A stretch of 47,397 bases of DNA from a virus. Made by a program: the position numbers and the translations under genes. The DNA lies in IMG/VR virus record IMGVR_UViG_3300009034_000065, positions 1 through 47,397 of that record; one strand, given 5' to 3'. This document shows, piece by piece, positions 2,626-44,806 of this stretch. The notes under the pieces were generated by a model. It was not told the origin of the DNA. It saw only the letters and a list, made by a program, of their open reading frames with translations, and ran no database searches. The number at the start of each line of letters is the position of its first letter. Positions within the stretch are counted from its first letter, which is position 1.

Positions 2626-2829
2626 TTATTTTACCACGCGGTATTTAGTCCCAGCAGAAAAACCAGGTTTAGCCAAACTGCCATATCCATATTTATTCAA
2701 TTGGTGAGCATGCAATCCCCTATAACCACTACTAATACCACTTATTACACCTTCTAAATTTTCATTAACAGCTACGGCAGCTTCAATAGTAGTAGCTACT
2801 TTTTGTTGTATTCTAGAAGCAATTGACAT
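2626..2829 (-). CDS. Small conserved-looking virion-cluster protein, 67 aa
   Basis: A 67-residue protein with a helical first half (about residues 5-32) and a Gly/Tyr-rich second half ending in basic residues. A clear GGAG ribosome-binding site lies upstream of the ATG. It is the first gene after a 58-base gap that carries a copy of the TTCCGAT motif (2862-2868), so it probably starts the transcript carrying the two fibre-type genes downstream. I do not recognise the family. A minor structural or fibre-assembly role is a guess from position only. Confidence 0.55.
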   Translation of the reverse strand: MSIASRIQQKVATTIEAAVAVNENLEGVISGISSGYRGLHAHQLNKYGYGSLAKPGFSAGTKYRVVK

Positions 2830-2861
2830 ATTAAATTCTCCAAAATTAATTTATATATAAA

Positions 2862-2868
2862 ATCGGAA
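2862..2868 (-). promoter_or_regulatory. TTCCGAT motif, candidate phage promoter
   Basis: On the minus strand TTCCGAT is followed by TTATATATAA and then, ~33 bases on, by the ATG of the 67-aa gene. Very similar sites recur upstream of other minus-strand genes (14541, 19587, 21097, 25611, 30284, 43430, 31173). The promoter role is inferred from this recurrence. Confidence 0.4.
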
Positions 2869-2887
2869 AAAAAACAAAATAATTATA

Positions 2888-5800
2888 TTATCCGCTCAAA
2901 ATATTACCATGCACCTCTCCACTTAACCATTCAGTTTCTACTGTCATCCACCATTTGTTCTCTTTGGCATCTAGACTGTGAGAAACAGAAAGAACAATTA
3001 ATTTTTGACCATCCACTTCCGCAACATCAAAACACCGTAATGGCAATCCGAATGTTTCAAATTTATATACAACTGGAGGTCTATAAAATTTCGTCAGATG
3101 ATTTGCATAATCCTCAGCAGCCTGTTCAGAACCAAAAACGCCATCCATCTGCAAAAATGTCTTCCTATAACCCAGAAATCCTTCCGTAGACGGATCTTTC
3201 ATGCTTTTCTCATTAATTCTGTCTGCCATAATATATTCACGTTTTGGTGAACTTGTAATAATATGTATATTATTATATACATCGCCAACAGCAAGTTCTC
3301 TTGTTAATATATTAAAAATAAGTTGACCATCTTCATCTGGCGATTCTGTAAAATACCACAAGGTATTTATATTAGCACCAGCTCCGCCTATTCCATAAAT
3401 TAAGTCGGCTATTGGGAAAGCTTCATAATGCAACATACCATCAACATCAAAAAATAATGGTTTTCCTGATCTTTCTGATATTTTATGTAACGAATCCATT
3501 ATTGAAGATCCATCACTGAATCTGAATTCTGGAGTCCCTTGTAATTTCTGATAAGAATGAGGTAAAGCATAAACTTTACTTAGAGAAACTACGCGACCAT
3601 CAAGTGGTCTACATGCATCGCCGATGCCACCCCATTCATTATGTTCCATCGCATGCTGTGCATGTCCTTGCAATAAAAATGCTGGATCACCCGGCTCATC
3701 CTCTTTAAATTGACAATATTTAAATAGTTCATAAATAGCGTTAATATCCCTCACGCCATCAAAAAATGGCGAATTGAATAACAATATATCTTTTGCCACT
3801 TTGCTATAATCATGAACTTTACAGCGCATTATTCTTTCACCGGGTCTTTCAGAAATTACACCACCATAACAAATACCGGTCATTAATTTATAAAATTTTG
3901 TATTTTCGTCATCAGCAGCCATCATGTCATCGTCACCTCCTCCTAACTTAGTATAATTACATCCCCAATAACCAGCCAATATTTGTACATAGAACGCCTT
4001 ATTCCTAAGATTTTCTATAACAATAGGATCTTTTGTGTTCGGACCCCTATTAATCAAAAATGTTAGCTCTCCATCATGTTCCATTTTGCTATAATCTTGA
4101 GCAGACCAATTATCATTATAATGCATTACATAATCGCTGGCATCTATTTCATCAGTTGCCCACGCATCTTCTTTTTTAGGTACGCCGATCAATCTCATAT
4201 TAGTCAATATCGGGGTTTTGCAATTCTTCAAGGACCACCCGCTCGGGAATACATGGCTGCCACATTTCATAAACACCTTTATGTACCAGGCTTCCATGTC
4301 TTCGCCAAGACCTTGTAATGCAGCATTTAGAGCTTCAGCATTTGTAGTGCTGGCTTCTGAAGCTCCCAAAAGAGTAGATTGAGCAACTGCTCCAGATATA
4401 GTCCCAAAATTAGATGATATAGCACCAGCAATACCGGCAGCAGCGGCGGCTCCTATACCTGCGTTTTCAGCGACAGCATTACTATGGGCAATGATTTTCG
4501 CATCTTTTTTTTCTATAAATAATCTACTTTTTTCGCCCTTTCTTTCATCTTTAATAAAACCGCCATAATCCATAAATTCAGATGGCCTCGTAACAAATCC
4601 CCCTCTCCATATAGGACTATATTCTTTTACCTCATGGGCATCACAGATATAAAATGGTATTTTTTCACCTTCCCTAATTTTAACTTTTCCCTTAAATTTT
4701 CCTGGATTTCTAGGAGTTGCGTCTTTATCTAATCCCATATCTCTTAAACTTAATAATATTTGAGTTTGTCCAGGAACAATAAATGGCATTACAGTGTCTT
4801 CTCCAGTCTTATCATATTTTTCCTTGCTAGGCAATGGTACTGGAATACTATAATGAGAAATATACTGTATAGGACTGAATAAAAATCCAGCACTTAAATT
4901 ACCACCCCATAGAGCCAAATGTCCATGAGGAACTTCAAATAAATCAGTAGGATCTTTCGGATCTTCGGGGGGAGTCGCAGGACACAATGAATTGTCTTGA
5001 TAGCCAGTACTATCTGTTGATGTAGATTCAACAGATGTAGAAGCTGGGTCTGTGCCAGAATTATTATCACCAGTATCAATATCCGCTCCAGTTCCAACAC
5101 TTTCAGATGATTCGTCAATCCAATCACCATACCCAATACCCATACTGCCTTCATATGCCGCTTGGACTTCAACACCCCCAACAGTTTGTACCACATAATT
5201 ATTATCTGAATAATAATCAGGCTCGTTATTAGATTCTGGTACATTCGTTTGGGGTTTATTGCCAGGTACACCCGCTTGTTGTCCACCACCCTTCTGCCCG
5301 TTAACTGTTCTAATATCTTCAACAACCCAAGGATCATTATAATTATTATTAAATACAATAACTATCTTTCCCAAATGATTTCTAATAGCTATTTTGAGAA
5401 CATCTTCATTAAACAACTCATTCCCAGTAGTACTTCCATACTCACTGATCAAATATGATTTCTTATCAACAATCTTAACAAATCTAGGAGCAGCTTTTTG
5501 TGTAATAATAATACAATATCTATAATTCAATCCTACGCCCATCTCAATAATAAAATATGCTTGTCTAGTAAAATCAAATAATTCTTTTGAAGAATCGATA
5601 GCGATTAATTTTCCTTCTTTATATCTATAAGAAACAACACCACCGTTAATTGGAATTTTATCATCTCCAACTTCGCATCTTGTTACATCCAATGTCCTAT
5701 ATATATTATCATCACCAAGCGTATTCTCAAATTTTGCAGTACCGTCCCTATTTTTAAGATCTGTTGAAACTGTAACCCTGCGCAGTTCAACAAAGAAATC

Positions 5801-6493
5801 TTCTCCACGAAACAGTGGAGTTCTTTTTCTCGCTCTCCAATGTATCCCACTTTGAAAGTATGGATTTGCAGCTACTTGAGCAGGCATAATAACATTACTA
5901 TCAGACGCCTCATTGGGGTCTCCGCTCTCATTACTATTTTCAACTTCTAAATTAATTCTCTCACATTCCCATCTAGATTTATCAGCATTGTCATCAGATG
6001 CGTTTGTTAAATATTCAGAAGGCTTCAATATTCTGTCCCCGTATTTTAAAAATACATGATCAGTGACATCCCATGTAAATTCTCTAACCATTGCCGCTGA
6101 AGCACCACTGGCAGCCATTAAAGAAGCAAGTCCTAATACTCCACCGACAACCGCAGAAGTTGTGGTAGATACAGTTGTTTGCCCAGTTAATTGTCCTATA
6201 TCCGGGCACAATGCTTCACAGCCTATAAATAAATATTGTGAATGGTAAAAATGCCTTTCTTTCAAAAATACACCAGTTTCTCCAAGTATTGACGATACAT
6301 GATCATTAATATAATCTGGAGCAGATTGCATAGTTTCATGGTTAAAAATAATATTTTGATCAGCAAATGGCGTCTTTTCAAATGGGCAATAACCATTAAT
6401 TATGCATTTTATCCTTAATGCACCGGCATTCCAATTACCATCTCTTGTATGTTTATTCGTTGGTATATCACTTACTTTTTGTCCTAAAACCAT
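2888..6493 (-). CDS. Large baseplate hub / tail-associated protein (predicted)
   Basis: A 1201-residue protein. The last ~200 residues look like the end of phage tail hub (gp27 / late-control D-like) proteins: a segment on Ser-rich, 'FDVDGMLHYEAFP'-type beta structure, then 'FGLPLRCFDVAEVDGQKLIV' and a closing 'WWMTVETEWL'. Such hubs form a ring at the tail tip onto which the spike docks. Two Gly/Ala-rich hydrophobic stretches, about residues 114-136 and around 700-735, could be membrane-active or simply flexible. Residues ~400-520 are a low-complexity Gly/Ser/Thr/Asp linker. It follows the giant 2660-residue gene by 10 bases and so belongs to its operon. Hub assignment is inference from the C-terminus and position. 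Confidence 0.5.
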   Translation of the reverse strand: MVLGQKVSDIPTNKHTRDGNWNAGALRIKCIINGYCPFEKTPFADQNIIFNHETMQSAPDYINDHVSSILGETGVFLKERHFYHSQYLFIGCEALCPDIGQLTGQTTVSTTTSAVVGGVLGLASLMAASGASAAMVREFTWDVTDHVFLKYGDRILKPSEYLTNASDDNADKSRWECERINLEVENSNESGDPNEASDSNVIMPAQVAANPYFQSGIHWRARKRTPLFRGEDFFVELRRVTVSTDLKNRDGTAKFENTLGDDNIYRTLDVTRCEVGDDKIPINGGVVSYRYKEGKLIAIDSSKELFDFTRQAYFIIEMGVGLNYRYCIIITQKAAPRFVKIVDKKSYLISEYGSTTGNELFNEDVLKIAIRNHLGKIVIVFNNNYNDPWVVEDIRTVNGQKGGGQQAGVPGNKPQTNVPESNNEPDYYSDNNYVVQTVGGVEVQAAYEGSMGIGYGDWIDESSESVGTGADIDTGDNNSGTDPASTSVESTSTDSTGYQDNSLCPATPPEDPKDPTDLFEVPHGHLALWGGNLSAGFLFSPIQYISHYSIPVPLPSKEKYDKTGEDTVMPFIVPGQTQILLSLRDMGLDKDATPRNPGKFKGKVKIREGEKIPFYICDAHEVKEYSPIWRGGFVTRPSEFMDYGGFIKDERKGEKSRLFIEKKDAKIIAHSNAVAENAGIGAAAAAGIAGAISSNFGTISGAVAQSTLLGASEASTTNAEALNAALQGLGEDMEAWYIKVFMKCGSHVFPSGWSLKNCKTPILTNMRLIGVPKKEDAWATDEIDASDYVMHYNDNWSAQDYSKMEHDGELTFLINRGPNTKDPIVIENLRNKAFYVQILAGYWGCNYTKLGGGDDDMMAADDENTKFYKLMTGICYGGVISERPGERIMRCKVHDYSKVAKDILLFNSPFFDGVRDINAIYELFKYCQFKEDEPGDPAFLLQGHAQHAMEHNEWGGIGDACRPLDGRVVSLSKVYALPHSYQKLQGTPEFRFSDGSSIMDSLHKISERSGKPLFFDVDGMLHYEAFPIADLIYGIGGAGANINTLWYFTESPDEDGQLIFNILTRELAVGDVYNNIHIITSSPKREYIMADRINEKSMKDPSTEGFLGYRKTFLQMDGVFGSEQAAEDYANHLTKFYRPPVVYKFETFGLPLRCFDVAEVDGQKLIVLSVSHSLDAKENKWWMTVETEWLSGEVHGNILSG

Positions 6494-29871: not shown

Positions 29872-30246
29872 TTAATTATCCCTTGTTTTTATAATTGGTT
29901 CATGATGAACCATGGATTTACCTTGATGTACAACTCTAATTTCTCCATTACTGAGAATAAAAGTATTTTTTTTATCCAACTTGCCTGTTAAAAAGTCATA
30001 AACCATCTTTTTTTGTATGCCATGCCCTACTCCACTTAAAATTAATTCTTTCATCTTATCTGGCATATCCTTGATTAAAGGTTCTTCCCCTTTCGCAACT
30101 ATTCCCCTCAATTCAGGAGAAGGAATAAAATAAAATACAATAGTACTATCAAAATTAAGAAGAATTTTTTTTAATCGAGCCTTATTATTTTTTAGTTTTT
30201 CAGCAAATTTTTTATCAAATATTCCATCTATTGGCGGTAAATCCAT
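29872..30246 (-). CDS. Protein of unknown function, 124 aa
   Basis: The ATG at 30246 is preferred because AAGGAGATATATC lies just upstream; an ATG at 30264 would place that site inside the coding region. The 124-residue protein begins 'MDLPPIDGIF', has a basic helix near the start and a His-containing end ('VVHQGKSMVHHEP'). It is probably the first gene of the transcript that runs through the two small genes to the 889-aa gene, since a TTCCGAT-like motif lies ~39 bases upstream. Function unknown. Confidence 0.5.
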   Translation of the reverse strand: MDLPPIDGIFDKKFAEKLKNNKARLKKILLNFDSTIVFYFIPSPELRGIVAKGEEPLIKDMPDKMKELILSGVGHGIQKKMVYDFLTGKLDKKNTFILSNGEIRVVHQGKSMVHHEPIIKTRDN

Positions 30247-30283
30247 GATATATCTCCTTTTCATTTAATACACTTACTATTAT

Positions 30284-30340: not shown

Positions 30341-30580
30341 TCAAACTACATTTCTTTCATTTCGAGCGATTCTGGCTAAATCCCGAAGGATCTGGGCTAC
30401 TTTAGAGAAGTTTCCCCTAAACAACAATGCTCTAATCTTTTCATATAAAAAAGGAGATACATTATGATATTCATAAACTTTATCACTACTAACAAAATTA
30501 ACACTTAATTCATTAAAATCTTGGTTATATCCAACAATCCTAATTTTAGGCAATTTAGTTGAAATTCTATACCAATTCAT
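30341..30580 (-). CDS. KTSC-like domain protein with N-terminal NWY tag
   Basis: A 79-residue protein. Residues ~12-60 ('IRIVGYNQDFNELSVNFVSS' then 'YEYHNVSPFLYEKI') match the pattern of the KTSC domain family: a strand, a Y-D/N-x-x-x-x-x-L-x-V-x-F strand, 'vYeY', and a helix. Function of that family is not established. The N-terminus 'MNWYRIS' shares the NWY tag of several neighbours. It starts ~13 bases after the T-run of the terminator that closes the candidate RNA. No good ribosome-binding site is visible. Confidence 0.6.
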   Translation of the reverse strand: MNWYRISTKLPKIRIVGYNQDFNELSVNFVSSDKVYEYHNVSPFLYEKIRALLFRGNFSKVAQILRDLARIARNERNVV

Positions 30581-30592
30581 ACAGCACCATGT

Positions 30593-30646
30593 ATAAAAAA
30601 ATAAAGCCCTATTATATAAATATATTATATAAGTAGAGCTTTATTT
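30593..30646 (-). terminator. Strong intrinsic terminator 3' of the candidate RNA
   Basis: On the minus strand AAATAAAGC (30646-30638) pairs with GCTTTATTT (30607-30599), with a long AT inner stem formed by two TTATATAA copies, then a run of T (30600-30594). It lies between the gene-free hairpin region and the KTSC-like gene. Confidence 0.75.
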
Positions 30647-31165
30647 CCTTTATTTCCCACTTCTATTACAACATATCAAGCTTTTTATTCTTAATGAGAA
30701 GTAGTTTATTTTGTTATAATAACGAACGTAGTTCGTTATTTGCGAGTGAAACGAGCATTTTCTTGACTCAATAAGCGCAGAAAAATCTAAAGTTCATATG
30801 AACGATTTCTGTTTATCAAAAAAATATATTGAAAAATTATTTAATTGATCTGGTAGATGCCTAGTTTCCTATCACTGGCTAATTGCCTCAAACTTATGCA
30901 ATTACTTATTAATTATAAGCGGGATATTCCACCTTTACAGATCTTGTTTGCCTCAGTCCTCAAACTTTGACTCTCGCAATATAGTCTTCCCGGCTCGACA
31001 TGACTGGCCCTTCTCTCTTTATGAGCATCAGGCAATCTTATTCTAGTAAAATACTAAATAAGCCCCTGTAAAACAGGAATCAAACCAATTAAAAAATTAT
31101 TATTCAATTTTCAAAACCTCTGCATTTTACCGCTAATTTTTCAACTTATCAGTTGAATCTGTTGA
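30600..31165 (-). ncRNA. Candidate large structured noncoding RNA, ~550 nt
   Basis: About 680 bases (30581-31263) hold no credible gene, the longest such stretch in a tightly packed window. Between 31160 and 30718 there is hairpin after hairpin on the minus strand: 31157-31151/31146-31140 (7 bp), 31111-31106/31098-31093, 31077-31073/31069-31065, 31062-31052/31048-31037 (11 bp, one bulge), 30904-30898/30886-30880 (7 bp), 30879-30874/30865-30859, 30811-30804/30787-30778, and 30740-30731/30727-30718 (10 bp). Long-range stems close multiloops: 31035-31030 with 30953-30948, and 30943-30939 plus 30933-30929 with 30856-30847. GC content rises well above that of neighbouring genes. A CCGATAT motif lies at its 5' end and a terminator at its 3' end. 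Size, setting and 'ornate' look recall phage RNAs such as ROOL and GOLLD; identity unproven. Strand is inferred from flanks. Confidence 0.6.
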
Positions 31166-31172
31166 TATGTAT

Positions 31173-31179
31173 ATCGGCT
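31173..31179 (-). promoter_or_regulatory. CCGATAT motif at the 5' end of the candidate RNA
   Basis: AGCCGATATACATAT on the minus strand (31179-31165) resembles the CCGATATATAT site before the homing endonuclease at 43430. Placed just before the hairpin series, it could be the promoter of the noncoding RNA. Confidence 0.35.
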
Positions 31180-31263
31180 ATTCTGTGAAAAGTTTTTTTC
31201 CGCTTTTTCACATTAATTTATTCTTCTAAATAGTAGGTCCAAACATCAAAGTCTACACCCTGG

Positions 31264-31626
31264 TTATGCGTGTTGTTGAATCCATGGATGTTTTGCATCA
31301 ACTCCCCTAGCATTTGTTCTTAACTTATAATTATTATCTAAATTAAATGTAAGAGCGTCCATGTCTGTATAACCATTATATAAATTTTCTCGTGATATTC
31401 CTAATTTATCTGCAAAAAAAGCATGTATCGCATAATAAGCTGGCCAAACATATAAAATACCAGTTTTATGATCTATTAATGCTCTTGCTTCTTTTCCAGG
31501 ATTTGTTTCTATTAACACTGATATATCAAGAACAGAAGGGTTAATTAGATATTCAAATCTATCTCCCTTTCTTGTATGCATAAATCCTCTTCTACCAGAA
31601 ATTTTTATGATTTTATACCAATTTAT
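31264..31626 (-). CDS. NWY-tagged protein, probable non-ATG start
   Basis: The first ATG in frame is at 31581 (105 residues), only 3 bases after its nearest AGGA. Fifteen codons further upstream the frame reads ATA-AAT-TGG-TAT-AAA, i.e. (I)NWYK, the same tag that starts neighbours at 30580, 33421 and 33905 with an identical AATTGGTATA core. I therefore place the N-terminus at the ATA codon at 31626 (120 residues). ATA starts are rare and no good ribosome-binding site is present, so this is inference; an ancestral ATG may have mutated. The body has mixed alpha/beta character ('KTGILYVWPAYYAIHAFF') and no recognised family. It lies 11 bases after the VWA gene. Confidence 0.5.
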   Translation of the reverse strand: MNWYKIIKISGRRGFMHTRKGDRFEYLINPSVLDISVLIETNPGKEARALIDHKTGILYVWPAYYAIHAFFADKLGISRENLYNGYTDMDALTFNLDNNYKLRTNARGVDAKHPWIQQHA

Positions 31627-32782: not shown

Positions 32783-33421
32783 TCAACCTATAGGAGTTAT
32801 TGTTACGTCTCTTCCCATAACTTTTGTGTCTATTTTCCATTCACCTGGATTAAATCCAGACAATATTCCCCATTCAACAGCTTTTTGTAATATGCCACGC
32901 ATTTCCATTATTATTAATTCTTCTACCCTTGGCAAAAGACCTGACTTCATTAAAATGTTGTATAATAAGCCTTGTCGTTGACCTTTATCTTTTCTTAATA
33001 TATTTGGTATAAGGTTTGGGCTCCATCTACGCAATGACCATAGTAATTTTCCAAGAATGGAGCGTCCTGCAGTTTCGCTATATTCTATCAAAACACTATC
33101 GCCAATAACACGAGAGGGGCTTAATAAATCAGAAATACTTTGTACAACATATTCAACATTGCCACCAGTATATACATCTCTGCCAGTTTCTTTTCTAAAA
33201 TATTCTTTCAACGCTTCTGTTTCTAGTGGGGGATTTTGACTTAATATTGCATTAACAGCCATACTCATATTTTGCAATCTATCTGGGTTGCTTGCAGAAA
33301 CATCATAAGACACCAAGAATCTTCTTTGTTTCTCTCTACCCCATTCTTGTGTAGCTGGATCAACCATAACTCTTGATTGTGCTTGAACAACTTTTCCACT
33401 GTTTCTCTTATACCAATTCAT
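32783..33421 (-). CDS. NWY-tagged protein of unknown function, 212 aa
   Basis: The ATG at 33421 (MNWYKRNSG) has TGGAGAATTCTT upstream and is preferred over an ATG at 33469. After the tag comes a region with 'REKQRRFLVSYDVSASN', a helical middle, a hydrophobic-basic stretch 'ILGKLLWSLRRWSPNLIP', and a C-terminal beta part ending 'VMGRDVTITPIG'. No family is recognised. It overlaps the end of the upstream NWY gene by 14 bases and precedes the VWA gene by 29, so the three are probably co-transcribed. Confidence 0.5.
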   Translation of the reverse strand: MNWYKRNSGKVVQAQSRVMVDPATQEWGREKQRRFLVSYDVSASNPDRLQNMSMAVNAILSQNPPLETEALKEYFRKETGRDVYTGGNVEYVVQSISDLLSPSRVIGDSVLIEYSETAGRSILGKLLWSLRRWSPNLIPNILRKDKGQRQGLLYNILMKSGLLPRVEELIIMEMRGILQKAVEWGILSGFNPGEWKIDTKVMGRDVTITPIG

Positions 33422-33905
33422 AAGAATTCTCCATTTTATAAGCATGACCAACGACAGCACGTTTTGCATCTTCCTCGGCTTTATCAGCCCGTTTTTCTAT
33501 TTGTAATCTAGTTTGTTTATCAATATTATCTGGAATATATCTAAGTATTAAATCTTTTATGGCTTTCCCAGCCTCTGATGCTATTTTAAATACAAGTTGA
33601 AAAGTTCCACCACCTACTTCATATACACCTTTTAGCTGTTTGCCAATACCATATATTATATCCATAAAAGCTTTGTTTACATTAATACCGGTATCTGCTA
33701 AAGCCATATTAGAAAGTGGTAGATCAACAAGATAATAAATAGTTGTTTTCAAAATACCCCATAAGCTTTGTGTTAATCCCACAAACATATTCTTAAAACC
33801 ACTTCCTATAGAAATGCCTTCTTTGCGCAAAGATTCTTCTATATCTTCTTGAGATAATACAAAACTGTCAAAAGCATTTAATTGCGTTTGTTTATACCAA
33901 TTCAT
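33408..33905 (-). CDS. NWY-tagged protein with hydrophobic centre, 165 aa
   Basis: It begins 'MNWYKQTQLNAFDSF', the NWY tag. Residues ~35-60 ('FKNMFVGLTQSLWGILKTTI') and ~85-115 are moderately hydrophobic and could associate with membrane, and a Lys/Glu-rich coiled helix follows ('RLQIEKRADKAEEDAKRA'). This mix recalls small internal virion or ejection-type proteins, but that is only a comparison. It is the leftmost-transcribed gene next to the divergent radical SAM gene, across a 114-base gap. Confidence 0.45.
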   Translation of the reverse strand: MNWYKQTQLNAFDSFVLSQEDIEESLRKEGISIGSGFKNMFVGLTQSLWGILKTTIYYLVDLPLSNMALADTGINVNKAFMDIIYGIGKQLKGVYEVGGGTFQLVFKIASEAGKAIKDLILRYIPDNIDKQTRLQIEKRADKAEEDAKRAVVGHAYKMENSYELV

Positions 33906-35134: not shown

Positions 35135-35743
35135 ATGCCAAATTGGTATCAAGAAAACTTGAAAAAGCACTGGAAAGATTACAGCAAAAGAGTCCTTATG
35201 TCTTTATGGCATTGTTCTCCAGATAAAATCACATCTCCTTCTGCTAAATCTGTATTCAAAGGTATCAACGGTATATATTTTTCCCCGTCCTATAATGGTG
35301 CTGTTCGTGATTGGGCAAACTGGGTTAGAGATAAAAAATTATTTTTAGATGATTTGAGTCGGAGAAAGGATGAAGTATTCAAAAAACAACTTGAAAAAGA
35401 AAATAAATATTTTTTAGAAGAGTTAGAATCAGATGATGAATATATAAAAATACGTGAAGAACTTAATAGAATAAATGATATACTAATCAATGAAAAATAT
35501 ACAAAATCTCATAAACCCTATGATTTTATATGGATAAGTAAATTTATTTTCCCTCGCTGGGCTTTTGATGAAATTAATAAATGGTTTCATAGTTTTATGG
35601 AATATGATAAAGATGGATTACCAAAACAAATTGGATTCTGGGCTTGGGGTGATCAAATTTTTATACCAGAAAAATACTTCAGATATTTAAAATTTGTATC
35701 AACAAATAAACTTACAAAAAAACAAATCTTAAATAAAATATAA
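35135..35743 (+). CDS. NWY-tagged protein, possible ADP-ribosyltransferase-like fold
   Basis: A 202-residue protein 26 bases downstream of the radical SAM gene and probably in its operon. It begins 'MPNWYQEN', a variant of the NWY tag. Next, 'VLMSLWHCSPDKI' and 'GIYFSPSYNGAVRDWAN' resemble the 'l-y-H-g-(S/T)-p' strand and '(I/V)-Y-F/L-S-P-s-x-x-x-A' strand of ADP-ribosyltransferase folds, and 'WGDQIFIPEKYF' could supply the last strand with a Glu. The middle (90-120) is a charged coiled helix. If correct, H, Y and E form the H-Y-E triad; this is a low-confidence inference from pattern alone. Confidence 0.55.
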   Translation: MPNWYQENLKKHWKDYSKRVLMSLWHCSPDKITSPSAKSVFKGINGIYFSPSYNGAVRDWANWVRDKKLFLDDLSRRKDEVFKKQLEKENKYFLEELESDDEYIKIREELNRINDILINEKYTKSHKPYDFIWISKFIFPRWAFDEINKWFHSFMEYDKDGLPKQIGFWAWGDQIFIPEKYFRYLKFVSTNKLTKKQILNKI

Positions 35744-37611: not shown

Positions 37612-37690
37612 TATATTTCCTTTTGTCACTTTCATACTTATTAACATATTCATCAGAATATACTGCAACATATTTTTTATTCTTTTTCAT
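37532..37690 (-). CDS. Possible small overlapping gene, 52 aa
   Basis: An open frame from ATG 37690, which lies inside the last codons of the 93-aa gene, to 37532 inside the 62-aa gene. It would encode a Tyr/Lys-rich peptide beginning 'MKKNKKYVAVYSDEYVNKY'. It spans the 65-base gap between its neighbours, which is why I mention it. No ribosome-binding site is visible, and half of it overlaps another frame, so it is doubtful. Confidence 0.25.
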   Translation of the reverse strand: MKKNKKYVAVYSDEYVNKYESDKRKYNEDRKKIHYRIITSHGRKSQKKKMGL

Positions 37691-37958
37691 TCGGTAATTG
37701 TATGTTAATAAAAGAGTTAATATGACCATTATCTACTTGGAAATGCAAATCAATCGTATAATTAACTGGCATTTTTTTTTCATAAAAATAATTACATAAA
37801 AGATGGTGTATTTTTTGAATCGTTCCATCTTCAATATATTGACATTGAATATACATTTCATGCCCACATGAGCATTCAGTATTTACCCCATTATTTCGCA
37901 GATATTTTACTAAATCACGAACTGGCTCTTCTATGTTTTCTTTGTACCAATCAATCAT
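37677..37958 (-). CDS. NWY-like tagged conserved small protein with SCGH motif, 93 aa
   Basis: It begins 'MIDWYKENIEEPVRDLVKYL', a D-W-Y variant of the local tag, followed by 'NNGVNTECSCGHEMYIQCQY', a Cys/His cluster that looks metal-binding. The rest is a helix and a beta end. Short phage proteins with the order 'V-x-x-L-R-x-x-G-I-x-T-x-x-S-C-x-H' are widespread and uncharacterised. The tag here may be part of that domain rather than an added signal. No function is claimed. Confidence 0.5.
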   Translation of the reverse strand: MIDWYKENIEEPVRDLVKYLRNNGVNTECSCGHEMYIQCQYIEDGTIQKIHHLLCNYFYEKKMPVNYTIDLHFQVDNGHINSFINIQLPNEKE

Positions 37959-40348: not shown

Positions 40349-41767
40349 TTATAGAGTTTTGATATGCTTTACAAAATCATTTATATATGATTTTATTTTG
40401 TCAAAATCCCAATATGGAATTTCTAATAAAGGTATATTATTTTTCTTGCACCATTGCCTCTTTATTTTATCGCGTTTTTTGACTATTGCAAATCTCTTTT
40501 TTGCGTCTCCGCTGCCGCCAAACATCATTGGTGTATAATGTTGTTCTCCTTGATATTCTATAAGAGCCATTTTGCTTTTATGCCATATTATAAAATCAAA
40601 TCTTAAACGAATTTTGTTTTTACATGATGCAGATGAATATTGCCTTTGGAATTTAGTTCTTTTCTTTTTTAATATATTTTCTATTTCTTTTTCTCCTTTT
40701 GATTCATTGCAATAAGGACAATTTCTTTTATGTGTTGTTCTATTTGCTATACGACTTTTCCATTCATGATCTTTCGCTTTATTACATTGCCACCATACTT
40801 TTTTATCAGAACCAGCAGTTACCATATTGGCAGTAAGATCATTATTTTTGGCAGGATGCCATTGTTTAGCTAATTGAGGATGAGTTGTAGATAAACAATT
40901 AGATTTAACTACTTTTTTTCTGTCACAACAAGGACAACTATGTAATCGTTTTCCTGTTCTATTATATATATATGCTTCCCATTTATGATCTTTTGCTTTA
41001 TTGCATTGCCACCAAATTTTTTTATGAGAACTATGAGTAAACATCTCTGGCGTTAGATTGCCATTTTTGGTAGAATGCCATTCTTTGGCTATTTTCGGAT
41101 GCGTTGTAGATAAACAATTAGATTTAACTACTTTCTGTCCCACACAACATGGGCAACCTGATTTATATCCTGTTCTACTATTTATTGTTGTTCTCCATTC
41201 GTGATCATCTGCAACGTTACATTTCCACCAGACTTTTTTAGTAGAACCATAAGTAAGCATTTCTGGCGTTAGATTACCATTTTTGGTAGGATGCCATTGT
41301 TTTACTAGTTCTGGATGGGTAGTAGAAAGACAATTAGATTTACAGACTTTTTTATTTACACAATATGGACATCCCCTTTTCCTTGTTCTATTTGCTATGC
41401 GTGCTTCCCATTCATGACCAGTCTTTTCATCACATTTCCACCAGATTTTTTTATCAGAACTGTGAGTAAACATTTCCGGTGTTAAATTACCATTTTTGAT
41501 TGGGTGCCATTGTTCTATTAGTTCTGGATGGATAGTAGAAAGACAATTGGATTTAATGGCTTTCGAACCATGGCAACAAGGACAACCAGATTTGTTTATC
41601 GTCCTATTTGCTACTCTCGCTTCCCATTCATGATCATCTGCCTTATCGCATTTCCACCAAACTTTTTTGTCAGAACCGTGAGCAGTTATCTCTGGCGTTA
41701 GATCACCATTTTTGGTTGGATGCCATTGTTTTACTAATTCAGGATAATCTGCGACTGTTTTTTTCAT
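40349..41767 (-). CDS. Five-repeat zinc-finger protein fused to a Vsr-like nuclease
   Basis: A 472-residue protein. Five tandem ~70-residue repeats each have 'HPELVKQWHPTKNGDLTPE', then 'KKVWWKC', 'HEW' and a closing CP(C/Y)C knuckle, the pattern of the treble-clef/zinc-ribbon domain DUF4379. The C-terminal ~120 residues ('GEKEIENILKKKRTKFQRQY', 'LRFDFIIW', 'ALIEYQGEQHY', 'RDKIKRQWC') fit a Vsr/PD-(D/E)xK-type nuclease. Related fusions in phages and their hosts are thought to be site-specific mobile endonucleases, with the repeats reading DNA. It sits near the LAGLIDADG gene and is probably a mobile element. No ribosome-binding site is obvious. Confidence 0.8.
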   Translation of the reverse strand: MKKTVADYPELVKQWHPTKNGDLTPEITAHGSDKKVWWKCDKADDHEWEARVANRTINKSGCPCCHGSKAIKSNCLSTIHPELIEQWHPIKNGNLTPEMFTHSSDKKIWWKCDEKTGHEWEARIANRTRKRGCPYCVNKKVCKSNCLSTTHPELVKQWHPTKNGNLTPEMLTYGSTKKVWWKCNVADDHEWRTTINSRTGYKSGCPCCVGQKVVKSNCLSTTHPKIAKEWHSTKNGNLTPEMFTHSSHKKIWWQCNKAKDHKWEAYIYNRTGKRLHSCPCCDRKKVVKSNCLSTTHPQLAKQWHPAKNNDLTANMVTAGSDKKVWWQCNKAKDHEWKSRIANRTTHKRNCPYCNESKGEKEIENILKKKRTKFQRQYSSASCKNKIRLRFDFIIWHKSKMALIEYQGEQHYTPMMFGGSGDAKKRFAIVKKRDKIKRQWCKKNNIPLLEIPYWDFDKIKSYINDFVKHIKTL

Positions 41768-41791: not shown

Positions 41792-42364
41792 TTATTCTCG
41801 ATTGTTTAAAAATTTGTATAGTAGATCATTATATTTTGCACTAGAATTATCAAAATTATTAAATTGGGTAGGATAGAAATAAATTTTTTCTGTTGTTAAT
41901 TTTTCGAGAATTAAACGGAACGGGCTTTTTAGCCAATTGTTATGATAATTATCTAAACTAGAAATCATATTATTCACTTCTGCCATTTTATATGTTGTGT
42001 CGTCTGTTAAAAAATGTGCTTCTTCAGACATCTCTTTTTCTTCTTCAACTGCTCCAACATCTATGTCACATATTATATCTACAATCTTATTTATTTTTTT
42101 AAATACATCATCAATAATATATTTTTTATCTCTTTTAATGCGATGGAATGTTTTAATGATAACCTTGTAGTCAGATACGTCACATTTTTTTAATTTCTTA
42201 TTAAATCTTCCTGTATAAAAGTATGCACTAGAAAAACATTCATCAATATCGCGTTTTATTTCTCCTAGTTTATGCAATATATGCATATACCAAGCAATAA
42301 AAATAGGTGACAATACACCTATTATAATACCTGTTATACTTAGTACTATTACTATATTAGCCAT
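41792..42364 (-). CDS. Membrane-anchored protein of unknown function, 190 aa
   Basis: An N-terminal hydrophobic helix (residues ~3-27, 'IVIVLSITGIIIGVLSPIFI') probably anchors the protein, and the remaining ~160 residues are helical and charged and would face one side of the membrane. The start overlaps the last codons of the homing endonuclease gene by 8 bases. No family recognised. Its link to the endonuclease may be hitch-hiking. Confidence 0.5.
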   Translation of the reverse strand: MANIVIVLSITGIIIGVLSPIFIAWYMHILHKLGEIKRDIDECFSSAYFYTGRFNKKLKKCDVSDYKVIIKTFHRIKRDKKYIIDDVFKKINKIVDIICDIDVGAVEEEKEMSEEAHFLTDDTTYKMAEVNNMISSLDNYHNNWLKSPFRLILEKLTTEKIYFYPTQFNNFDNSSAKYNDLLYKFLNNRE

Positions 42365-43382
42365 TTTTTTTTCTCCGCTTTAAATATTTTTCATAATTTA
42401 TTTTATAACCGAACATCGGCAACACATGTGGACTAATTAGACGAATAAAATCTTCATTTGAATCATGTTCAACAATTATTCGATATTTAGGAACTCCATC
42501 TTTCCTACAACCGCGTTGTTTAATACGAACTTTTATATTATAGCTTTCAAAAAACCAATCTTTTATATTTCGACAAGATTCTAAAGAAAAAGAGTCTGTA
42601 CAAAAGGAATAATATTCCTTGACATGTTTTCCATATTTTCGTTTTCTATAATTCCAATCTGTTCTACCATCATCCATATACCACACGGCAATAGACAATG
42701 GCGTTAAATTTTTCAAAATTTTATTAGCGATTTGCTTTGATTCAGACCCATAAAATTGCTTATTAATTTCTTCTAATTCTGTATTTGAATAAGTATAAAA
42801 TCTATAAGAAACATGTGTATTTCCACTTCTTTTGTCATAATAAGCTTCTTTCTTTATTCCTCGTTTTGTAACAAGACTTTTTAATTCGTTATATTTCCAT
42901 TCTAAATATTCTTTTTGATTTTCACATTGTCCAAATCCTATTGATGCTTGTGCAAATTTTTTAGCATCACCCATCATCGAACCATAAATAATTTCCTTTT
43001 GCCGTGGAGTTAAAGCAACTTCAGTATTTTTTCTATTAATGAAAGTTGCTCCTTTTACTTTTATTTGATAAAGCTGACGTAAATACCCTATATAATCCTT
43101 AGATATATTATTTTCTTCTGCTATTTTTACCAATGATTTTCCTGAATTATATTCTTTTTCAAATATTTCTTTTGTAAGAGTTATAGCTCCTTTTGATAAT
43201 TTGCTAAAAAATACAACAAGATTTTTTGACGTTATTTTTCCTATTTGTACTACAGTAAGACCATTTTGTATATATTCTTTGAATTGTTTTAAAGTGATAT
43301 AATCATTTTTTCTTCCACGAGATGATAATGATAAGTCAACATCTAGATAAGGTTCTATTAAATCCCAATTATATTTGCCCAT
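42357..43382 (-). CDS. Free-standing LAGLIDADG homing endonuclease
   Basis: A 341-residue protein with both LAGLIDADG motifs: 'IIYGSMMGDA' at 131-140 and 'LSIAVWYMDDG' at 229-239, ~99 residues apart, as in single-chain enzymes. Each supplies an Asp for metal-dependent double-strand cleavage. The N-terminal ~110 residues include a helix-turn-helix ('SLVKIAEENNISKDYIGYL') that may help DNA recognition. It is not visibly inside an intron or protein, so it is probably free-standing and copies itself into relatives lacking it. Its AAAGGAGAACAAAT ribosome-binding site can be sequestered in a hairpin (43388-43446), and a CCGATATATAT motif lies inside that hairpin. Confidence 0.85.
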   Translation of the reverse strand: MGKYNWDLIEPYLDVDLSLSSRGRKNDYITLKQFKEYIQNGLTVVQIGKITSKNLVVFFSKLSKGAITLTKEIFEKEYNSGKSLVKIAEENNISKDYIGYLRQLYQIKVKGATFINRKNTEVALTPRQKEIIYGSMMGDAKKFAQASIGFGQCENQKEYLEWKYNELKSLVTKRGIKKEAYYDKRSGNTHVSYRFYTYSNTELEEINKQFYGSESKQIANKILKNLTPLSIAVWYMDDGRTDWNYRKRKYGKHVKEYYSFCTDSFSLESCRNIKDWFFESYNIKVRIKQRGCRKDGVPKYRIIVEHDSNEDFIRLISPHVLPMFGYKINYEKYLKRRKKNG

Positions 43383-43519: not shown

Positions 43520-44806
43520 TTACTGGCCCGAGCTAAACAAATATCTGAACCAACGACTTCGACCACCCGGCAAGGTATATTCAGGTATATCAACAATAGC
43601 CATTCTTGGATATGGGCCAAATTTTTTCTGTTCATACAACCATTTCCATTCTTCTTCATAATTCTTTTTTAATGTTTCAAGATTACCAAATATTTGTTGA
43701 TAGTCATCTTGACCGAATACTTGTCTTGGTTCTTGGAAATTAATACAAAGCAATAGTACTCTCAATGCTTCTGATGCCGCATGTTTAAGAACTGCCGGTT
43801 GCCAATTAATAGGTAGATCTGAAAAGTCATATTGATCTCCTGCTGGTGGCATAATATTAAAATCACCTAATGCATTTGTTAAAAATACATATAAATCTTC
43901 TTCTGAAAACCATCTAAATGTATAATCAACAAATACTCTATCAAATTCTGTTAAACGAGTATCAAAACGAATTGTACCATCAAAATAATTAACTTCTGCA
44001 CCGGCGGTTAATAAATCGTTTTGATTTCTATAAATTTTAATTCCTGGTGTTTGATTCCATCTAGAAAACGTTAATCTATATAATTGTCTATCTGGTGATG
44101 GTTTAGCTTGTTCAAAATATATTGGAATACTTTGGGCGCATCTTATCATAACTTCTAGTGCAGATATCATGTCTGAAACGATTCCGCTATGTATATCAGA
44201 ATCTTCTCCATCTTCGACAACGATAACTTCTTGTAATTCTGTTCTACTATCTCCACTTGCTGTATATGACCATACGACATTATATTTTCCAGGTTCTTGT
44301 GTGTCATCGATTTCCCATGGAAATACATAGAATCCTTCTCCGCTTTTTTCTGGAACACCGGATTCTGCTTCTACTCCTGATGCATCTTCTGTAATAGCTA
44401 CTGATATACTTTCTGGATCGATTGGTTCTCCATCGAAGTTTGTTATTCTTAATAATAATGTACCAGTTGTTCCTTGTATCATTTTGCCTCTAAAATCTGC
44501 AACTGCTCTGATATTATTTTGTCCAATTGGACCTATTTGTTGTACAACATATTTGGGTTGATATGTTGCATAGGGAACAACTCTCCACGAAACTATATAT
44601 ATTTCTCCTTCTTCTGCTGAAAATTCTCTTTGATAATATCCTGTTTCTGGGCGGGAAACTGATGTTCCGCTTGGAAGTATAACAGCATCATCGCTTGCTC
44701 TTTTTATCCCAAAAGTTCCATCTTCTGAGGCAAGAGTAACAGAATACGCATTTCTTCTTACGTTATCTTCTAAGTAATATATATAAACTGTTTCGCTAGT
44801 TGGCAT
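43520..44806 (-). CDS. Virion structural protein with Ig-like region, 428 aa
   Basis: A 428-residue acidic protein. The N-terminal half is beta-rich with Ig-like strands ('GTTGTLLLRITNFDGEPIDP' ... 'GEGFYVFPWEID') that resemble part of the 135-aa neighbour ('GRGSTGLILNARLVDSDNN' ... 'GTGFYLFHYES'). The C-terminal half has a short beta segment ('EVNYFDGTIRFD') and helices, then a Trp-rich end. It is the last gene of the right-hand structural block. Similar beta sandwiches occur in baseplate and fibre-connector proteins; the exact role is unknown. Stop 43520 is followed by a hairpin. Confidence 0.5.
   Translation of the reverse strand: MPTSETVYIYYLEDNVRRNAYSVTLASEDGTFGIKRASDDAVILPSGTSVSRPETGYYQREFSAEEGEIYIVSWRVVPYATYQPKYVVQQIGPIGQNNIRAVADFRGKMIQGTTGTLLLRITNFDGEPIDPESISVAITEDASGVEAESGVPEKSGEGFYVFPWEIDDTQEPGKYNVVWSYTASGDSRTELQEVIVVEDGEDSDIHSGIVSDMISALEVMIRCAQSIPIYFEQAKPSPDRQLYRLTFSRWNQTPGIKIYRNQNDLLTAGAEVNYFDGTIRFDTRLTEFDRVFVDYTFRWFSEEDLYVFLTNALGDFNIMPPAGDQYDFSDLPINWQPAVLKHAASEALRVLLLCINFQEPRQVFGQDDYQQIFGNLETLKKNYEEEWKWLYEQKKFGPYPRMAIVDIPEYTLPGGRSRWFRYLFSSGQ

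Follow-up and report, generated by a model that had tools for sequence, protein, structure and literature searches.

The window analysed here is the whole of a 47.4 kb virus record, IMGVR_UViG_3300009034_000065, which encodes a tape-measure-like protein and a minor tail protein. Within it, a stretch of 683 nt (30581-31263) separates a 105-aa ORF on its upstream side (31264-31581, function unassigned, coding score 0.67) from a KTSC-domain gene downstream (30341-30580; Pfam PF13619, E 8.9e-7), both of these flanking genes lying on the minus strand. When ORFs of at least 65 aa are counted, this is the window's only gap of at least 280 nt; if the genes are picked by hand instead, the longest intergenic stretches after it measure 476 and 410 nt. 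An in-frame dicodon score trained on the window's own genes served to compare the gap with coding DNA: none of the gap's six frames rose above -0.24, whereas the leave-one-out scores of 22 small genes, our control, ranged from +0.12 to +0.76. PHROGs gave no match for those frames of the stretch that were tested, a 40-aa minus-strand ORF inside it had no match in any phage record, and tblastx against relatives of the virus gave nothing credible, so that these checks brought out no protein reading frame through the region. Consistent with an earlier reading of the letters alone (the sequence-only reading), which had seen no credible reading frame on either strand, the stretch is noncoding.

At the downstream end of the stretch lies an intrinsic terminator hairpin of 17+8 pairs followed by a U tract (30594-30650, minus strand, -23 kcal/mol). 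The strong terminator previously proposed at 30593-30646 is thus real, running from 30650 to 30594, and it ranks first among the window's 224 terminator-like hairpins on both strands, even though a stock terminator scanner left it unlisted. The start codon of the KTSC gene follows 13 nt past the hairpin, and a search for a Shine-Dalgarno sequence ahead of that gene found no clear one. We took the terminator as the 3' end of a putative minus-strand transcript, 30594-31179, whose 5' end is the guess of the sequence-only reading. That reading had framed the 5' end with a CCGATAT motif, an argument that fails on frequency, as the motif occurs 7 times in the window where 4.6 occurrences are expected, which is chance level. 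No promoter for the putative transcript stands out in a scan. Upstream of it, an 8-bp hairpin formed by UGUGAAAA/UUUUCACA (31184-31212, minus strand) lacks a U tract on that strand.

The composition of the stretch is uneven. A core at 30850-31070 has a GC content of 0.40, compared with 0.31 for the whole gap, 0.24 for its 3' part, 0.25 for other intergenic DNA and 0.33 for the window. The rise against an AT-rich background that had been described is therefore real in relation to intergenic DNA, and it is matched or exceeded by 9% of all 220-nt windows. Viewed as a whole, the candidate noncoding RNA of the sequence-only reading keeps its noncoding status, its raised GC, its orientation with its neighbours and its outstanding terminator, and loses its CCGATAT-framed 5' end.

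Predicted folding gave a similarly divided outcome. On the minus strand, individual stems can indeed be drawn: a perfect 10-bp hairpin with a 3-nt loop, AATAACGAAC/GTTCGTTATT (30718-30740, mean pair probability 0.97); an 8-bp stem, CUACUUCU/AGAAGUGG, upstream of the terminator (30657-30704, mean pair probability 0.70); and a stretch, 30840-31093, closed by a predicted AU-rich long-range helix of 13 pairs (31093-31081/30852-30840, mean pair probability 0.89). The proposed 587-nt transcript has a fold z-score of -5.1, most of which stems from the last 150-200 nt at its 3' end. Divided into parts, the z-score is -5.2 for 30601-30800 (third of 472 windows of 200 nt), -0.8 for 30801-31000 and -2.3 for 31001-31200; without the terminator it is -2.5, and the opposite strand gives -3.4. 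For the core region 30800-31160 we obtained values of -2.27 to -2.63, and a comparison set of 95 other minus-strand windows, equal to it in size (mean -0.47, sd 1.26), contains 7 that reach -2.27 or lower. Apart from its last 150 bases or so, the predicted fold of the stretch does not surpass that of the virus's ordinary genes. Thus, of the hairpin-dense fold that had been described, the named stems and the long-range helix stand, such a density of stems is ordinary for this phage, and the further claim of an exceptional, large and complex structure finds no support in the z-scores.

The sequence-only reading had suggested a likeness to the large phage RNAs ROOL and GOLLD. Covariance-model searches with the families of Rfam 15, which include HEARO and, as we take it, also ROOL, GOLLD, OLE and raiA, gave no match anywhere in the window at gathering thresholds, and only chance-level matches in the region 30400-31400 at E<=10. 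ROOL, GOLLD, OLE, HEARO, raiA, introns, tmRNA and tRNA were all without a match in the window, as were the Rfam riboswitches. As a control, the same search recovered HEARO in one relative (L115) and many tRNAs in others, and so it works on sequence of this kind. Identity as ROOL, GOLLD or HEARO is accordingly rejected by sequence-structure search. A group I or group II intron was considered and set aside, there being no Rfam intron match and the stretch lying between two complete ORFs with no gene interrupted.

Searches for homologues of the stretch itself were equally negative. None was found in 50,697 phage records or 72,556 plasmids, nor by nhmmer against the assembled relatives (whole or partial records); in eight and a further fourteen related or linked records the best match, at E about 7e-4, covered 25-27 AT-rich bases. 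Two exact patterns of 16 to 17 letters, scanned against IMG/VR, returned chance matches only, and a 65-aa open frame across the core, converted to six degenerate peptide-derived patterns, returned nothing from the same database. With no homologue found, there is no sign of selection on the stretch. A 9-mer, GGCAUCUAC, is common to the stretch and to relative L123, and AAGUUUGAGG is repeated; by our own estimate both are at about the level of chance.

To place the virus among its relatives we used its proteins as bait. The KTSC, 105-aa and vWA neighbour proteins found no relatives in IMG/VR or in 18 related records. The clade was located through a 385-aa ParM-like protein (named by eye), relatives of which are 47-64% identical and occur on IMG/VR contigs 13 to 494 kb long. 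Judged from this protein similarity, the window represents part of the genome of a phage whose clade includes jumbo-size records of up to 494 kb. No tRNA genes were found in the 47.4 kb window; ARAGORN counts 71 and 42 in the relatives G003 (494 kb) and G007 (334 kb). The KTSC protein of the window begins MNWYR, and starts of the type M(N/x)WY(K/R/Q), for example MNWYK, are common to many otherwise unrelated proteins, being present in the window at 30341-30580, 32783-33469, 33408-33905, 35135-35743 and 37677-37958 and also in G010, G018 and G021. Matches to M..WY in the window number 7, against about 2.5 expected, and such a start may act as an N-terminal tag common to these proteins, for instance one that targets them to the virion.

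Comparison of gene order in the clade bears more directly on the stretch. In nine relatives (L003, L004, L005, L008, L009, L118, L122, L124 and L125), homologues of the genes at 43523-44806 and 29872-30264 are roughly 0.1 to 1.9 kb apart. The approximately 13 kb that separate these genes in the window, the stretch included, therefore constitute a variable insert. The insert also carries a gene with DUF4379 repeats and DUF2726 (40349-41767) and a LAGLIDADG homing endonuclease gene (42357-43382), the latter with a homologue at the same place in G008/L009. G008 has a low coding density and protein matches in pieces, as if from frameshift errors, and no single stop reassignment clearly repairs it.

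We scored ORFs in fourteen relatives, in this interval or, for want of a visible homologue, in the adjacent one; L009, which has the LAGLIDADG homologue in its interval, lies outside the fourteen on account of its fragmented protein matches. Of the scored relatives, all three with nuclease-type genes have noncoding stretches of similar size near the site, compared with one of the eleven without. L115 has a 695-nt noncoding stretch (1304-1998) beside an HNH gene, in addition to HEARO with IscB. In L123, 883 and 417 noncoding nt surround a TnpB-like gene, and in L116 ORF scoring leaves 173 (3979-4151) and 289 noncoding nt around an HNH gene, the 3' stretch becoming 502 nt (4812-5313) if a weak 63-aa ORF with a score of 0.19 is discounted. 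Ten of the eleven whose interval is free of nuclease genes have no noncoding stretch of at least 120 nt; the exception is L006, with 418 noncoding nt (5696-6113, GC 0.45) and no nuclease gene seen in its interval. This association between nuclease genes and noncoding stretches is post hoc, small and not clean, yet because of it, origin from a mobile element has to be counted as a serious rival to the reading we prefer.

Several further observations concern these relatives. In L115, an omega-RNA of the HEARO family (103 bits) is followed by an IscB gene (RRXRR + HNH) at 2785-4329, near the same site in the structural operon. The stretches L115:1304-1998, L116:3979-4151 and 4812-5313, and L123:2562-3200 are raised in GC, lack a strong coding frame, have no Rfam match and lie beside HNH or TnpB-like genes. 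L115 and L116 have related HNH proteins (41% over 99 aa), and when their noncoding stretches were aligned by structure, the score exceeded ten natural controls. The surroundings of an HNH gene in Tunturi_5 show similar spacing, but a reading of its letters pointed to tRNA-like stretches on the opposite strand, and this candidate was rejected. An ATPase in L127 (4603-6309, PhoH-like by eye) has a P-loop, GPPGTGK, apparently split by an intein-like insert that ends in HN before SFLAV.

A noncoding, GC-raised stretch that ends in the window's strongest terminator and lies inside a segment absent from nine relatives could represent an accessory noncoding transcription unit on the minus strand, and this is the reading we tentatively favour, at a confidence somewhat short of even. 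The stretch would be read together with its neighbours on the minus strand, and transcription would stop at the strong intrinsic terminator, immediately ahead of the KTSC gene. The product would be an RNA of roughly 500-650 nt working, if at all, as RNA in trans, and the stretch would be cargo of the variable insert, not belonging to what is conserved in the structural operon. The stretch is probably transcribed; that transcription, the stability of the RNA and its function are all three what we infer.

A second way to view the stretch is as the RNA-bearing debris of a selfish nuclease element, or as a solo RNA left by one, omega-RNA-like or intron-like, that has lost its nuclease gene. The site is a homing-nuclease hotspot: the window's insert holds the LAGLIDADG gene and the DUF4379/DUF2726 gene, noncoding stretches lie beside HNH, IscB/HEARO or TnpB-like genes near the site in L115, L123 and L116, and such a stretch is missing from 10 of the 11 relatives whose interval lacks a nuclease gene. 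However, the nuclease gene nearest to the window stretch is about 9 kb away and none adjoins it, the HEARO and intron models are unmatched by it, and L006 has a stretch of this kind without a nuclease. The window stretch could not be aligned by sequence with the noncoding DNA near the site in L115, L116 and L123. We also ran a home-made structural alignment in the style of LocARNA beside shuffled, reverse-complement and natural controls, in which its score against them fell within the natural controls, leaving no detectable sequence or fold in common. We consider this origin unlikely, though to be taken seriously.

Alternatively, the stretch may be the long 3' untranslated region of the upstream operon, or a spacer, with no function beyond its terminator, which may just end that operon. 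The terminator sits where an operon end would, the core folds at background level and no conservation was found, yet 683 nt is long for this phage and the core exceeds other intergenic DNA in GC; we regard this explanation as rather improbable. A leader of the KTSC gene with a switchable terminator (an attenuator or riboswitch) 13 nt before the start codon would account for the order of structured leader, terminator and start codon, but no antiterminator pairing was seen by eye, no Rfam riboswitch matched and the gene lacks a clear Shine-Dalgarno sequence, making such a leader very unlikely. There is a similarly slim chance that the window stretch and those of L115, L116 and L123 are members of an undescribed class of large phage RNA, about 500-700 nt long and too fast-varying for detection by sequence, at a nuclease-rich hotspot that a jumbo-phage clade has in its structural operon. 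A decayed protein gene, which the gene-packed location might suggest, deserves almost no weight given six clearly noncoding frames, no PHROGs trace in the frames tested and a 40-aa ORF without a phage match.

Thus, the accessory transcription unit that we favour is best described as a plausible noncoding transcript, an orphan that may stem from a mobile element; it does not amount to a demonstrated new class of RNA. Were it both transcribed and structured, it would add one more large phage-encoded RNA with no function assigned, and the finding at present is a single orphan sequence. The site near IscB/HEARO, HNH and TnpB genes is, additionally, a concrete place in which to seek RNA-bearing selfish elements in jumbo phages.

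Among known systems, ROOL, which assembles as a homo-octameric nanocage, is phage-borne, several hundred nt long and unassigned in function, as the putative window RNA would be; the window stretch differs in having no Rfam match at a useful score, no tRNA island and no sign of ROOL's conserved, ornate fold. The HEARO/IscB omega-RNA is brought to mind by the HEARO-IscB unit near the same site in L115, although the window stretch has no RF02033 match and no iscB among its neighbouring ORFs. ROOL and GOLLD are frequent near tRNA islands (PMC12286853), a setting typical for ROOL and not required. GOLLD is likewise a phage-borne large noncoding RNA, but many of its members exceed 800 nt and their 3' region is universally conserved (PMC12286853), whereas the window stretch gave no match to it. 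Raised GC of intergenic regions is the signature used by the GC-IGR pipeline for noncoding RNAs (PMC11109978). The orphan GC-rich intergenic regions of such screens advance once similar sequences from other genomes yield an alignment and a structure model (PMC11109978); the window stretch, for which no similar sequences were found, resembles those orphans in being likewise long, raised in GC and unassigned in function.
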